Assembly (NCBI RefSeq): GCF_007744075.1
Contig: NZ_CP036266.1
Coordinates: 3,457,748-3,521,747, forward strand
Origin: Gimesia chilikensis
GTDB taxonomy: Bacteria; Planctomycetota; Planctomycetia; Planctomycetales; Planctomycetaceae
Reading direction: 5' to 3'
Length of the DNA: 64,000 nt
The notes beneath the pieces were generated by a model. It was not told the DNA's origin, did no database searches, and saw nothing but the letters and a program-made list of their open reading frames with translations. Numbering within the stretch: position 1 is the first letter of the stretch; the number at the start of each line of letters is the position of its first letter. This document shows positions 34,246-40,006 of the stretch, one piece after another. Position numbers and translations under genes: made by a program.

Positions 34246-34389
34246 AATCGGTTTCTGATATATGGGTGCGGATTATCACAGGTTTTTTTGATTTTCAATG
34301 ATTCCGGGTCGGAAATCAAATGGCAGTGGGTTGACGATTGGAAAATTAGCTCCATAATGCATGGTTCACGCGTTGATACGCTATCAATT

Positions 34390-34510
34390 CAGGGGCGGAA
34401 TGCTGTCCCCGAGTATGGTGGGGTAGTCGTTGACCGGGTCAGATCTTAACCGAAGCAGCCCACAGCGGTTTATTCCAGGTGTACGAGGGGGCAGTATTTC
34501 GCCCCTGTTT
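34390..34510 (+). ncRNA. ffs: Signal recognition particle RNA (4.5S type)
   Basis: The core GGUCAG-A-UC-...-GAAGCAGCC (34437-34460) lines up base for base with the E. coli 4.5S domain IV, including the symmetric GCAG loop. The ends pair: caggggcg (34390-34397) with cgccccug (34500-34507), and further in cugucccc with gggggcag. A T-run follows, so it is a compact SRP RNA of about 120 nt. The apical tetraloop is UAAC (URRC type) rather than GGAA. Position immediately before dnaX matches scr in Bacillus. Confidence 0.92.
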
Positions 34511-34666
34511 TTATTTCCCGTGTCTATTCGCGATGCAGATCTCAATCAGGGCTACTCTCTCACTGGATAAACAGCCCGTAGTCTTCTATTGTAGATGTTT
34601 GAGCAGTCAGACGATTGCCGTTTGCCAAACAATGCCTCTATTTGATTTCGATCTCTGAAGTTACGC

Positions 34667-36454
34667 ATGTCCAAACAATCACTACAGTACACCGTGCTGG
34701 CCCGTCGTTTTCGCCCGCAAAACTTCTCGGAAGTGGTGGGACAGGAAATGGTCGCTCGGGCGCTGCAGAACGCCATCCGGGGAGACCGGGTTGCCCACGC
34801 CTACCTGTTTACCGGTGCCCGCGGAGTCGGTAAAACGTCGATGGCCCGAATTTTAGCCAAGGCGTTGAACTGTCCCAACACGCAGGATGGAATCCCCTGT
34901 GGCGAGTGCGAAATCTGTCAGAACATCGCGACAGGCAGCGATGTCGACGTACTGGAAATCGACGGTGCGTCGAACCGCGGGATTGATGATATCCGCTCTC
35001 TGCGGGCCAATGTTAATGTGCGTTCGATGCGATCCAAATACAAGATCTACATCATCGACGAAGTGCACATGCTGACCAAAGAGGCCTTCAACGCCCTGCT
35101 GAAAACGCTGGAAGAGCCGCCTCCGAACGTTAAATTCATCTTCTGTACGACTGAGCCTAACAAGTTACCCGATACGATTCTGTCCCGTTGTCAGCGGTTC
35201 GATTTCGGGTATATCGAAGAGACGAGTATCTGTGAGCGACTCAGACAGATCGCGGAAGCAGAAGGGGTCACGGTTGCCGATGATGCCATCCAGCTGGTTG
35301 CCCGGCGGGCCGGCGGTTCAATGCGGGACAGCCAGTCCATTTTTGACCAGCTGCTTTCGTTTGGTGAAGATAAACTGACTGCAGAAGGCGTGCACCGTAT
35401 CCTGGGGACTGCCAGTGATGAACGGTTGATAGAACTGCTGGATGCGTTGATGCAGCAAAAGCGGGATGTGGCGCTCTCACTGTTTGATGCGGCCCTGATT
35501 TCAGGCGTGCAGCTGAATGAGCTGGTTGATCAGCTCCTGAATTACCTGCGCGATCTGTCGGTCGTGGCGAGTGGCGCCAATGATGTTACGCTGCTGGCCA
35601 TCTCGGAAAATAATCGGGAGAGCCTGCAACGACAGGCAGAGGTCTGGGGGATTCATACCTGTCTGGCAGCGTTTCAGGTGTTGAATGAAGCGCGGAATAA
35701 AATGTTCCGCGCCAGCCATGGTCGTGCCCTGGTCGAGCTGGCGTTGATCCGGATGTCTCTGCTGGAAGACCTCGACCAGTTGTGTGCGTTTGTAAAATCA
35801 GGCGGAGCAGTGCCTGCGATGGCAGCCGCTCCCCGTCCCGCGGTCTCCGCAGCCCCGGTTTCGGCTCCCGCTCCCCCTCCCCGGGAAGCCCCTTCCCGTC
35901 CGGAACCGGCTCCTCAACCGGCTGTCGATCAAAAAAAAATTGAAAAAAAAAATGAAAATCAATCGGTTGTAGCGTCAAATTCAATTGAAAGCACACCTCC
36001 TGCCCGGGATTTGATTCCACTACGGGCTGGGATGGAAAGTTTACTGTTGTCGCAACTTATTGAAAATACAGGGGATCTGTTGAAAGACTCCCTGAAGGGA
36101 GTGGCGTCAATAGCAATTTCTGGGCCGAAACAGCTGGATTTACAATTCTCCAAGAGCTATAATTTCGCAAAACAATACTGCGAACGACCTGAGATGTTGG
36201 TCAAACTCGAAGCAGCATTGGAAAAACTGACAGGAGAGCGGGCCAAGATCCGCCTGATTGTTCAGGAGCCAGCAGAGGCTGAAGAGGCCGCAGATGAAAA
36301 TAACACACTGGCACAAAAAAAACGGGTAGAAAAACGAGATCTGGCACCTGCTGGAGATGAATTTCTGCAAGAGGCTCTGACTGTGTTTAATGCTCAGAGC
36401 GTGCGAGTGGATGTCTTAAAAGTCAAAACGGAAGAGAAAAAAGAGGAATCATAG
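34667..36454 (+). CDS. dnaX: DNA polymerase III subunits gamma/tau
   Basis: This 595-residue clamp-loader ATPase has Walker A GARGVGKT (50-57), zinc cysteines 69, 78, 81 and 84, Walker B IIDEVHML and the sensor-1 region FCTTEPNKLP. SRC (arginine finger) follows in LSRCQRF. Domains I-III end near residue 370; a Pro/Ala-rich linker and a tau-specific C-terminal region follow. At codons 422-430 two long A runs (35931-35939 and 35943-35952) occur, and in the -1 frame each is followed by TGA, which would yield a gamma form of about 425-429 residues. Loads the beta clamp and bridges polymerase and helicase. Next gene 2 bases after the stop. Confidence 0.97.
   Translation: MSKQSLQYTVLARRFRPQNFSEVVGQEMVARALQNAIRGDRVAHAYLFTGARGVGKTSMARILAKALNCPNTQDGIPCGECEICQNIATGSDVDVLEIDGASNRGIDDIRSLRANVNVRSMRSKYKIYIIDEVHMLTKEAFNALLKTLEEPPPNVKFIFCTTEPNKLPDTILSRCQRFDFGYIEETSICERLRQIAEAEGVTVADDAIQLVARRAGGSMRDSQSIFDQLLSFGEDKLTAEGVHRILGTASDERLIELLDALMQQKRDVALSLFDAALISGVQLNELVDQLLNYLRDLSVVASGANDVTLLAISENNRESLQRQAEVWGIHTCLAAFQVLNEARNKMFRASHGRALVELALIRMSLLEDLDQLCAFVKSGGAVPAMAAAPRPAVSAAPVSAPAPPPREAPSRPEPAPQPAVDQKKIEKKNENQSVVASNSIESTPPARDLIPLRAGMESLLLSQLIENTGDLLKDSLKGVASIAISGPKQLDLQFSKSYNFAKQYCERPEMLVKLEAALEKLTGERAKIRLIVQEPAEAEEAADENNTLAQKKRVEKRDLAPAGDEFLQEALTVFNAQSVRVDVLKVKTEEKKEES
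35931..35955 (+). promoter_or_regulatory. dnaX poly-A slippage site (A9 and A10 runs)
   Basis: Nine A residues at 35931-35939 and ten at 35943-35952 lie in the linker between the ATPase core and the tau domain. A -1 frame change in the first run meets TGA at 35941; in the second run it meets TGA at 35953. A +1 change meets TAG at 35970. The arrangement resembles the A9 site of Thermus dnaX, where transcriptional slippage is known. Confidence 0.75.
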
Positions 36455-36456
36455 CC

Positions 36457-36810
36457 ATGTTCAAAGGACTGGGAAATCTGGCCGGCATGATGAAGCAGTT
36501 TTCGGAAATGCAGGGACGGATGCAGGAAATGCAGGACAAACTGGCCAAGCTGAAGTTCGAAGGCGCCGCCGGTGGTGGCATGGTGACTGTAGAAGCAAAC
36601 GGCCAGCAGAAAATTCTGGGTGTCACCATTGATCCGACACTGATGGAGAGCGGTGATAAGGAAATGCTGGAAGATCTGGTTACCGCAGCTACCAATGCCG
36701 CTCTCGATAAAGCCCGCGAAGGCGCAGCGGAAGAAATGGCTCAAATCACAGGAGGGCTGAACATCCCCGGTCTCGATGAGGCATTGTCCAAGTTCAATCC
36801 CAATTCGTAG
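36457..36810 (+). CDS. YbaB/EbfC nucleoid-associated protein
   Basis: This 117-residue YbaB/EbfC family protein forms a dimeric DNA-binding 'tweezer'. The N-terminal helix has the [19 protein letters not shown] heptads; the strand [16 protein letters not shown] and the C-terminal [15 protein letters not shown] are family typical. It starts 2 bases after dnaX stops and is followed by recR, as in Bacillus (yaaK) and E. coli. Role: DNA binding, probably linked to recombination or repair and gene control. Confidence 0.93.
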
Positions 36811-36892
36811 GCTGAGGTTTCCTCCCCCTGATTTCCAGCCAGGTATCGCTGGGTTTCGTTCGTCGATTTCTCATGATAAAGAGTTCACTTTT

Positions 36893-37519
36893 ATGGCGTT
36901 TCGTGGAAGAGAGAATCAGTCTCATCCTTACGGTTCCAGCGTGGGGCAATTGATTGACCAGTTTGCTACGCTGCCCGGAATCGGTCGCAAGTCGGCGGAA
37001 CGTCTGGCGCACTATGTCCTCTCGATTCCCGAGGCCGAAGCGCGTCAACTGGCAGATGCCATCATTGCTGTGAAACAGGCGATTCATCCCTGCAAGATCT
37101 GCTTTAACCTGACCGAACAGGAAGTCTGCAGCATCTGTGCTGATCCACGACGGGATAAAAAACTGGTCTGTGTTGTCGAACAGCCCCGGGATGTGGTTTC
37201 ACTGGAAGCCACCAGTTCGTTTCAAGGTGTGTATCATGTGTTGCAGGGACGAATTTCTCCCCTGGAAGGAGTCGGCCCCGATGATCTGACGATCAACGCC
37301 CTGGTGCGCCGGGTCAAGCAGGATGGCGTACAGGAAATTATTATGGCTACCAACCCGACCCTGGAAGGGGACGGGACTGCGCTCTACATTTCGAATCTGC
37401 TCGAACACGAAAATGTGGAAATTACCAGGCTGGCGCGCGGAATAGCTTCCGGCAGCGTCCTGGAATTTGCGAATAAAGAGATGTTGGCGGATGCCTTGCA
37501 GGGACGACAAAGGTTCTAG
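36893..37519 (+). CDS. recR: Recombination mediator protein RecR
   Basis: This 208-residue RecR has the helix-hairpin-helix near the N terminus ([17 protein letters not shown]), the four-Cys zinc motif CKIC-x9-CSIC and a Toprim domain starting [11 protein letters not shown]-terminal Walker-like/ELAN region contains [15 protein letters not shown] and [12 protein letters not shown]. It acts with RecO in loading RecA at gaps. ATG 36893 is used; the frame stays open upstream into the end of ybaB, but the extra residues have no RecR character. It completes the dnaX-ybaB-recR block. Confidence 0.96.
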
Positions 37520-37576
37520 GTTTTCATTTTCATTTGTTTCTTTAACAACCATGATGAGTTTGAATTCGGATAATAT

Positions 37577-39067
37577 ATGCATCTGAATATTTCACAACAA
37601 ATGAAACTGGGCCAGCAGATGAAGCTGGCTCCCCGGATGATCCAGTCCATGGAGATTCTGCAGCTCCCATTACAGGCGCTGGAGGAACGCATTGACCAGG
37701 AACTGGCAGAGAATGTCTGCCTGGAACGCGTCAGCGATACTGAAGGGACAACGGATACCGAAACGGAACTGATGCGGAGTCAGGCTGACGACGATGCCAA
37801 CAGTTACAAGCTCGACGAAAAAGAGATGGTCGCCGGCAACGAAACCAACAACGAGTCCGATTTCGAACGGCTGCTCGAGATGGCAGAACAGTGGCCGGAA
37901 GATAATGTGACTTCCGCGACCAAGCCTTCGTCAAACCGAATCAGCGAAGACATCGAACGTAACAACGATGCGGTCGCCAATATTTCAGAACGCCAGCAGA
38001 CCATCAATGAATACCTGCTGGAACAGTTTCATTACTTTTCCTGCTCTCACGAGATCAAGGAATTCGGCGAATATCTGATTCAGAACCTCGATCATAATGG
38101 TCGGCTGCAGAGTTCCCTGCCCGAGATCGTGCAGGTCTATGGAAAATCAATCTCGCAGGAAGAGGCCGAAACCGCCCTGCACCTCATTCAGAAATGCGAT
38201 CCTCCCGGCGTGGGGGCGCGGGATCTGAAAGAGTGTCTGCTCCTGCAACTCAAGCCGGACGCTCCCTATCGCGACGTGCTGGTCACCCTGATCACATCAC
38301 ACCTGGAAGATCTGGGACAAAATCGGTTACCCGTCATTCAACGAAAGACCGGCTACTCGATCGATACCATCAAAAATGCGATGTCCTATCTGCGTTATCT
38401 GGATCCATTCCCGGGACGTGGATTTGAATCGGAGCCGGTGTTGAAAGTGACGCCGGATGTCTTTGTCAAAAAAGACGAAAACGGCAAGTACGTGGTCGAA
38501 CTTGAGAATGAGTACACACCACCACTGCGGATCAGCCGACATTACGCACAACTGCTCCGCAATAAAAATGACGATCAGACCAAAGACTACATCAAGAAGA
38601 AGATCGATGCCGCCAAATGGTTGATTGAAGCCATCGAGCAGCGGCACAGCACTTTGAAACGCGTGGCGCAGGCGATTGTCGACTTTCAGACCGACTTCCT
38701 CGATAACGGTCCGGAATACATCGTCCCCCTCAAAATGCAGCAGATCGCAGATGTGGTTGGCGTGCACGTTACGACGGTCTCGCGTGCCGTCGATGATAAA
38801 TGGATCCAGACTCCGCGTGGTTTGTATCCTCTCAAGCGTTTCTTTGGCGGCGGTACCAAGACCTCCGACGGGGAAGACGTGGCCTGGGGCATTATCCGTC
38901 TCAAGATGAAAGAGATCATCGATGGGGAAGATAAAAGCAAACCGCTCAGTGATGACGCACTGGTCGATGCCCTGGCGAAGGAAGGTTACAACCTCGCACG
39001 ACGAACCGTAACCAAATATCGCAAAGCGATGAATATCCCCTCATCCCGACAACGGCGTGAGTATTAA
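37577..39067 (+). CDS. rpoN: RNA polymerase sigma-54 factor
   Basis: This 496-residue sigma-54 has region I near the N terminus ([22 protein letters not shown]), an acidic region II (about 50-130) and the core-binding region (about 140-330). The C-terminal DNA-binding part has [19 protein letters not shown]-type helix-turn-helix and the RpoN box ARRTVTKYR close to the end. It directs transcription from -24/-12 promoters with enhancer-binding proteins. It starts 57 bases after recR and may be co-transcribed. No obvious AAA+ activator is in the window. Confidence 0.96.
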
Positions 39068-39079
39068 GCGGTCGCCACT

Positions 39080-40006
39080 TCAGAGTTGATGCTGCCAGCC
39101 ACTTCGTTCCAGTGAAACGCGGGAACCATCGGTCTGTTCCAGGAACGCCCCCTGCCCTGAGTTGATTTCACCCAGGTGCGTAAGTGGGATTGAGAGTGGG
39201 TTTTGCTCAAGCAGTTTTTGTCCCTCTTCAGGTGAGACGGTGAAGAGCAATTCGAAGTCTTCGCCGTCGGAAAGTGCCTTCTGCAGACGCTCTGCTTCAG
39301 TCAGTTCTGTAGAAAGGCAGGCGTTGATGGGAAGCTGCTCTGAGCGGATCACGGCGCCCACGCCTGATTCAGTTGTTATATGCTGTAGATCGGAAGCCAA
39401 TCCATCGCTGATGTCGATCATCGCGTGCAGGGAGACCATTTGCCTGAGGAGTGTTGCTTCCCTGATGCGTGGCGTAAAGGTCAGGTGATGTGACGCCAGG
39501 CTGCCTCCCAGAGCGCCGGTAACGAAGATCCAGTCCCCGTCACGGGCATTGGAACGTGTAATTGACTGCAGGCTCGGAGCCATTCCCATGACCGCGACAT
39601 TGATCACCAGCGGACCGTCCCAGGTGTTCGTGTCACCGCCGATGACCTCAACGTGAAATTCTCTGGCGAGGTCAATCAGGCCCTGCATGACAGACTTGGC
39701 AAATTCAGCCCCCCGTGAACGGGGTAACGCCAGACTCACCAGGGCGGAATGCGGTTCTCCCGCCATCGCGGCGATGTCACTGAGATTCACTGCCAGCGCC
39801 TTGCGGCCTGCGAGTTCAGGAGTCGCAGGAGGAAACGTGAAATGCGTCCCTTCCATCAACATATCGGTTGCCAGCAACAGCTCCCTGCCCGCCTGCGGTT
39901 GCACAATGGCAGTATCATCGCCGATGCTCCGCAGGTCATGCGGAGGAGCCGGGCAACGGGTCTGGATCCATTCGATCAGTTCAAATTCGTGGAAAGCGGC
40001 AGCCAT
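39080..40006 (-). CDS. thiL: Thiamine-monophosphate kinase
   Basis: This 308-residue ThiL phosphorylates thiamine monophosphate to the diphosphate, the last step of thiamine cofactor synthesis. Visible family features: DDTAIVQPQ with paired Asp, TDMLMEGTHF, AVNLSDIAAMAGEPHSALVSL, IGGDTNTWDG, VTGALGGS, IDISDGLASDLQHI and SDGEDFELLFTV. It is convergent with rpoN (12-base gap). Start ATG 40006. It appears single-gene; no other thi genes are nearby. Confidence 0.95.
   Translation of the reverse strand: MAAAFHEFELIEWIQTRCPAPPHDLRSIGDDTAIVQPQAGRELLLATDMLMEGTHFTFPPATPELAGRKALAVNLSDIAAMAGEPHSALVSLALPRSRGAEFAKSVMQGLIDLAREFHVEVIGGDTNTWDGPLVINVAVMGMAPSLQSITRSNARDGDWIFVTGALGGSLASHHLTFTPRIREATLLRQMVSLHAMIDISDGLASDLQHITTESGVGAVIRSEQLPINACLSTELTEAERLQKALSDGEDFELLFTVSPEEGQKLLEQNPLSIPLTHLGEINSGQGAFLEQTDGSRVSLERSGWQHQL

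Follow-up and report, generated by a model that had tools for sequence, protein, structure and literature searches.

The dnaX gene in this genome carries two runs of adenines, A9 and A10, which very probably act as a cassette for programmed transcriptional slippage, similar to that in Thermus dnaX but arranged here twice in series. As read from the sequence, this one gene would probably give rise to both a full-length and a shortened clamp-loader protein, through slippage of RNA polymerase. The window, i.e. the whole 64-kb stretch of DNA that was analysed, belongs to a genome of 8.29 Mb in a single contig, and dnaX is followed in it by ybaB, recR and rpoN, in that order. The features considered are the following:

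34667..36454, plus strand: dnaX, tau form, 595 aa (TIGR02397, 456 bits; NF004046, 484 bits; Pfam match)
35931..35939, plus strand: putative first slippage run, A9 (sequence reading; of 15 genus loci, 14 have A9 and 1 has A10)
35941..35943, plus strand: TGA of the -1 frame behind run 1, its last base shared with run 2 (425 aa in-silico product)
35943..35952, plus strand: putative second slippage run, A10 (of 15 genus loci, 11 have A10, 3 have A9 and 1 has lost the run)
35953..35955, plus strand: TGA of the -1 frame behind run 2 (429 aa in-silico product)
35970..35972, plus strand: TAG closing the +1 frame behind both runs (sequence reading)
36113..36129, minus strand: predicted antisense sigma-54 -24/-12 site, GG-N10-GC (nucleotide conservation and consensus match)
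36457..36810, plus strand: ybaB/ebfC (TIGR00103)
36893..37519, plus strand: recR (RecR_HhH, RecR_ZnF, Toprim_4)
37577..39067, plus strand: rpoN, sigma-54 (Sigma54_AID, Sigma54_CBD, Sigma54_DBD)

Tau is encoded by a single open frame, and the sense strand of this frame has a stretch of nine or more A beyond domain III. The TIGR02397 match covers DnaX residues 8-363 and the Pfam match to gamma/tau domain III stops at residue 369. The approximately 50 residues that follow residue 369 form a proline/alanine-rich linker, ending in AVDQKKIEKKNENQSVV, and the A runs occupy codons 422-429 inside the linker, about 71% of the way through the gene. An earlier note on this DNA had placed the runs in the linker behind the ATPase domains, and these limits bear it out. 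Direct reading gives C A9 TTG A10 TGAAAAT for positions 35930-35959, and every coordinate in that note is correct, for the two runs (35931-35939 and 35943-35952), for the TGA at 35941 and at 35953 and for the end of the +1 frame at 35970. A third run, an A8 at 36315-36322 near the 3' end of dnaX, occurs among the loci read only in the four closest strains (L001-L004). An Rfam scan of positions 34300-39200 at the gathering score returned no family.

Inserting one A in silico into run 1 yields a product of 425 aa (46.5 kDa), inserting one into run 2 yields 429 aa (47.1 kDa), and deleting one A from either run yields 434 aa (47.7 kDa), the calculated mass of tau being 65.4 kDa. The gamma form of about 425-429 residues predicted earlier is thus recovered, but a third product, of 434 aa, has to be added to it since the +1 frame is closed too. 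In the proposed mechanism, RNA polymerase would deliver from the A9 and A10 a population of mRNAs with A gained or lost. Unshifted reads would give tau, reads with one additional A would stop at the TGA directly behind the run that gained it, and reads shifted the opposite way would stop at the TAG at 35970. Nearly all shifted messages would then encode a gamma-like clamp-loader subunit comprising domains I-III but not the tau tail, and this gamma would be made and used in the cell. After the gain of an A in run 1, the TGA would be met before run 2 is read through. Because run 2 could not undo the run-1 shift and would add a second chance to slip, the doubling should raise the gamma share. The description of the doubled site as redundant was a guess: among the loci read the doubling occurs in one genus, and serial runs should increase gamma rather than serve only as each other's backup.

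Judged from the window alone, the excess of A9 is mild: three overlapping A9 words are present against a shuffle mean of 0.48, and at least three were obtained in 6 of 100 shuffles. Over the whole genome, both strands taken together, the 43 A9 words listed correspond to 37 separate runs, 5 of them of at least 10, and among these words the dnaX pair is the sole case of two A9 or longer runs less than 100 bases apart.

The conservation of the cassette was followed in the genus and in the family, which are groups g1 and f1 of the comparison set. dnaX was found in 15 of 17 genomes of the genus, own genome included, and all 15 linkers were read. Both A runs are kept in 14 of these loci, and every one of the 15 has a +1 stop no more than 33 nt from the first run. 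In the fifteenth locus (L011) run 2 is broken and run 1 is an A10, a single case, which hints that a longer run may make up for fewer runs. In an alignment of 11 representatives that include L011, DNA identity, with each gap scored as a difference, is 34% over the 48 columns preceding the site and 90% at the site itself. Third-position identity, scored where the residue and the first two bases agree, is 0.96 at the site compared to 0.55 over dnaX upstream in the same representatives, and 0.97 at the site in a set of 9 representatives without L011 and L015. The lysine codon is AAA in 43 of 43 cases at the site compared to 168 of 278 elsewhere in the 11 representatives. It is this comparative conservation, the window-level excess being mild, that makes the doubled runs more than chance; on the evidence of the alignments, they are no accident.

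In the order, the 170 genomes available all belong to one family; 150 of them gave a dnaX match and 146 loci were read, G040, G064, G105 and G163, which are fragments or unlisted, being left out. A run of A9 or longer is present in the linker in 126 of the 146, as a single A10 (70 loci), a single A9 (40), a double run (14), an A11 (one) or an A12 (one), and all 14 doubles lie within the window's genus, among the loci read. The remaining 20 loci have no such run, 4 of them ending at contig ends. Per genus, the run is present in 45 of 54 assessable genera, absent in 9 and mixed in none, and on a DnaX tree of 137 rows 5 changes suffice for its presence and absence. The cassette is thus dispensable in those 9 genera, which counts against the slippage reading. 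The longest linker run in 137 complete loci is 9-10 in 121, at most 6 in 16, and 7-8 in none; the median GC of dnaX outside the genus is 0.57. The A12 and A11 loci (L116 and L125) come from one genus, and in both the assembled zero frame ends shortly behind the run. They are either assembly errors or dnaX genes whose tau needs slippage.

Outside the family, 60 loci were read from 244 genomes of the phylum set that were searched. An A9 or longer run past the ATPase domains is present in 7 of 13 loci of the same class and in 10 of 47 from elsewhere in the phylum, and single cases among 80 named loci were found in Ignavibacteria (L224), Bacteroidetes (L254, L271) and a Verrucomicrobia MAG (L226). 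A planctomycete of another family (L207) has an A10 with a zero-frame stop at +4, a two-ORF arrangement that would make tau dependent on recoding.

The placement of stops was evaluated in 109 single-run family loci outside the genus, the A11 and A12 loci being left out. The null was the downstream peptide synonymously recoded with the gene's own codon usage, and other places downstream of domain III served as control. A -1 stop is found within 12 nt in 88% of the loci, compared to 51% after recoding and 13% at other places, and a +1 stop within 21 nt in 86 (79%), compared to 31% and 21%. Both stops together are present in 79 loci (72.5%), compared to 13.5% and 2.5%. Species are not independent in these counts or in those of conservation; with each genus, the window's own among them, represented by a single locus, the -1 stop is present in 38 of 45, the +1 stop in 30 of 45 and both in 28 of 45. 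Stops are distant at some loci, e.g. L028, L044 and L055. The earlier reading would have failed on A runs lost in relatives; the runs are kept in genus and family in the numbers given above, with stops placed behind them in both shifted frames.

Both runs contain the heptamer A_AAA_AAA in the zero-frame register, and TGA comes next in the -1 frame, so that gamma could also arise by ribosomal -1 frameshifting in one or both of them, as in E. coli dnaX, with a faithful RNA polymerase. We regard this as unlikely. The heptamer and the -1 stop would suffice for such a ribosomal slip, yet a longest run of 7-8 is never seen in the 137 complete loci, and a +1 stop would not be needed, yet it is enriched over the 31% expected. 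Additionally, none of seven SD-like words sought 2-20 nt upstream of the run was found in 47 of 47 representatives, and the slippery heptamer A_AAA_AAG is absent from the site, where there is no AAG. The same reading of E. coli dnaX (L347), the one control gene, returned AGGGAG upstream, with stops 5 nt away in the -1 frame and 37 nt away in the +1 frame. Folding downstream of the run is slightly in favor of frameshifting, with a mean z of -0.34 over the 47 representatives compared to +0.36 in a control stretch further upstream (-0.2 downstream in L001). Just upstream of the run, where a hairpin can stimulate slippage in a Roseiflexus IS according to the part of PMC5009743 available, the mean z is -0.28 and no hairpin is common to the representatives. 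There may thus be a weak tendency to structure around the run. Ribosomal frameshifting as the sole mechanism was set aside on the run lengths, the +1 stops and the lack of an SD-like word in the interval searched, and a mixture with transcriptional slippage may exist. Stops in both frames, a run of 9-10 A with the +1 frame closed and no SD-like stimulator fit transcriptional slippage better, and we hold it with good confidence to be the most likely mechanism.

Three further readings of the A runs were set aside. That they do no more than code for a linker peptide rich in lysine, within a stretch rich in A, or are neutral homopolymers without a second product, agrees with the peptide QKKIEKKN being conserved in the genus, with a linker tolerant to change and with a gene in frame throughout; it is nevertheless highly improbable, given third positions nearly fixed at the site and both-frame stops above the synonymous null. 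Single runs elsewhere in the family lie in codon phase 1 in 98 loci and in phase 2 in 14. Because they occupy other phases and peptides, it is the nucleotide run that is kept, and not the peptide. Phase variation by replication slippage at mutational hot spots seems the least probable reading of all. Long homopolymers do mutate, and the A12 and A11 of L116 and L125 break the frame, but these two loci come from fragmented assemblies and may be errors, the function of tau is presumably essential, and run lengths stay at 9-10 across species whose DnaX is 77 to 99% identical to that of the window. The runs might, finally, act on the other strand, where they would end, as a U-tract terminator, an antisense transcript made from a sigma-54 start near 36101; approximately 150 nt downstream of that predicted start the minus strand reads T10 and T9. 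We give this very little chance: all 10 assessable genomes with an unlinked rpoN have the run and no motif, the motif occurs without the run in L019, L038, L043, L064 and others, and the terminator scan lists no minus-strand hairpin at the runs. On the tree, moreover, the run tracks the motif in a mean of 1.0 of 4 pairs and shows no difference in 2.9. Across the genomes compared, the A run and the sigma-54 motif are independent of each other, and transcriptional slippage remains our reading of the runs.

The predicted antisense site itself lies in a second stretch of dnaX fixed at synonymous positions, SIAISGPKQLDL, for which the genus conservation scan gave third positions of 0.97. Family-wide its sense sequence is GCAATTnnnGnGCCAAA, in frame. 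In 114 loci, chosen by a protein motif which was defined after the DNA motif was seen, alanine is GCA in 114 of 114 at the motif compared to 16% elsewhere in these genes, isoleucine ATT in 109 of 111 compared to 41%, and proline CCA in 97 of 114 compared to 17%. The minus strand reads TTTGGC-N-C-NNN-AATTGC, which fits, with GG-N10-GC spacing, the sigma-54 consensus TGGCAC-N5-TTGC given in the accessible part of PMC12316311. TGGC-N7-TTGC is present on the minus strand in 83 of the 114 protein-anchored loci, and in this window CGGC replaces TGGC at -24, one base off, with GG-N10-GC intact. The degenerate pattern has one occurrence in the whole genome. The stretch reads as an antisense sigma-54 promoter, predicted to start near 36101 and directed back towards the A runs, the element being about 160 bases downstream of the cassette. 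Intragenic sigma-54 sites in both sense and antisense orientation, many of them conserved, are described for E. coli in the part of PMC4591121 available. No sigma-54 site inside dnaX was found in the open literature surveyed, and the word dnaX is absent from the text of PMC12316311 to the extent accessible.

rpoN is three genes downstream of dnaX, and the presence of the motif was scored against this linkage in 144 of the 146 family loci. The motif is present in 103 of 107 genomes in which rpoN is linked and in 0 of 10 assessable genomes in which it lies elsewhere, L116 and L125 being left out as their frames are broken. A scan of the whole locus gave a 2-mismatch stretch without the -24 GG in L116 and nothing under 3 mismatches in L125. 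Where contig edges leave the linkage unresolved the motif is present in 3 of 16, and where rpoN has no place among the matches listed in 8 of 9, some of which have further rpoN matches. Four linked genomes without the motif (L096, L098 and L102 of one genus, and L139) count against the association. On the tree the linkage changes 3 times, and the only 2 pairs that are independent both go the way expected (p 0.5); the association thus comes from 2-3 independent events, below significance, and is suggestive.

Of the 21 loci in which dnaX is separate from rpoN or the linkage is unresolved, 11 (L325, L327, L329, L331, L332, L334, L341 and L343-L346) have TTGGCNC-N5-TTGCW on the minus strand with at most 1 mismatch, upstream of or at the start of the rpoN frame and approximately 100-210 bp before the ATG where it could be placed; at some of them it may belong to a divergent gene. 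One further locus of the 21 has a match on the plus strand. Several of the 21 keep recR adjoining rpoN. Gemmata (L213), Aporhodopirellula (L215) and Scalindua (L219) share the order dnaX, ybaB, recR, rpoN, and L149-L155, L212 and L213 carry the motif with no more than 2 mismatches. Taken together, we put forward only tentatively, and with somewhat less than even confidence, that in this bacterial class dnaX could be a regulatory platform in which the slippage cassette, doubled in one genus, sets tau/gamma and the antisense sigma-54 promoter provides feedback by RpoN, the motif being lost once the two genes are unlinked. RpoN would then feed back on its own operon, dnaX-ybaB-recR-rpoN, by antisense transcription or by a stalled closed complex. 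If true, the antisense site would tie a replisome operon to sigma-54 autoregulation.

A further A10 is present in the same genome in ftsK (C1:2751700-2753298, minus strand; L304 / L348), identified by Pfam FtsK_4TM, FtsK_alpha and FtsK_SpoIIIE. The run, at C1:2752520-2752529, lies between the membrane and motor parts and is retained in every one of the 11 genus loci, where the -1 frame stops at +12 and the +1 frame at +26. A run of at least 8 is found in 0 of 19 ftsK loci outside the genus. ftsK is a candidate second slippage gene, which would release the membrane part alone.

No report of slippage in a planctomycete dnaX was found in the open literature, subscription papers lying outside the search, and the sole mention of a planctomycete in the accessible text of PMC3711429 is a table row. 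Slippage in dnaX is already known as a kind; its clade-wide occurrence and its doubling, which among the loci read is limited to this genus, appear to be new. In the literature surveyed, as far as its text was available, Thermus is the basis for proven transcriptional slippage of dnaX. With a run of constant length in more than 100 of the loci read, one doubled genus, nine run-less genera and two over-long loci, the family would open the old question of the purpose of gamma to a comparative test, and the series of no run, A9, A10 and A9+A10 would constitute a natural dose series for RNA polymerase slippage.

Transcriptional slippage in Thermus thermophilus dnaX was reportedly described by Larsen et al. 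in 2000. In that gene, as here, a single ORF encodes tau, nine A stand in the sense strand and stops are near in both shifted frames; reads with an A number other than 9+3n meet a stop there, according to the available portions of PMC1088944 and PMC5009743, and in both cases the short product should come from reads whose change in length is not divisible by three. The earlier comparison to Thermus holds for a run of the A9 type with stops in both frames, but its 'same position' is loose, as the Thermus run is seven-eighths of the way through the gene (PMC1088944, in the part seen) compared to about 71% here. Unlike Thermus, this dnaX has two runs, A9 and A10, with starts twelve bases apart, known here from sequence. 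E. coli dnaX is alike in being the same gene with a recoding site at a similar place and gamma produced via the -1 frame (PMC5009743, same portions), and it differs by its A_AAA_AAG with an upstream SD-like element and by a +1 frame open for 37 nt. Antonov et al. (2013) listed poly-A in 12 of 17 two-ORF dnaX genes, nine of them with A10, and proposed transcriptional slippage for them (PMC3711429, accessible text). L207 resembles their two-ORF arrangement. In those genes the zero frame encodes the short form, whereas in the dnaX described here it encodes tau.
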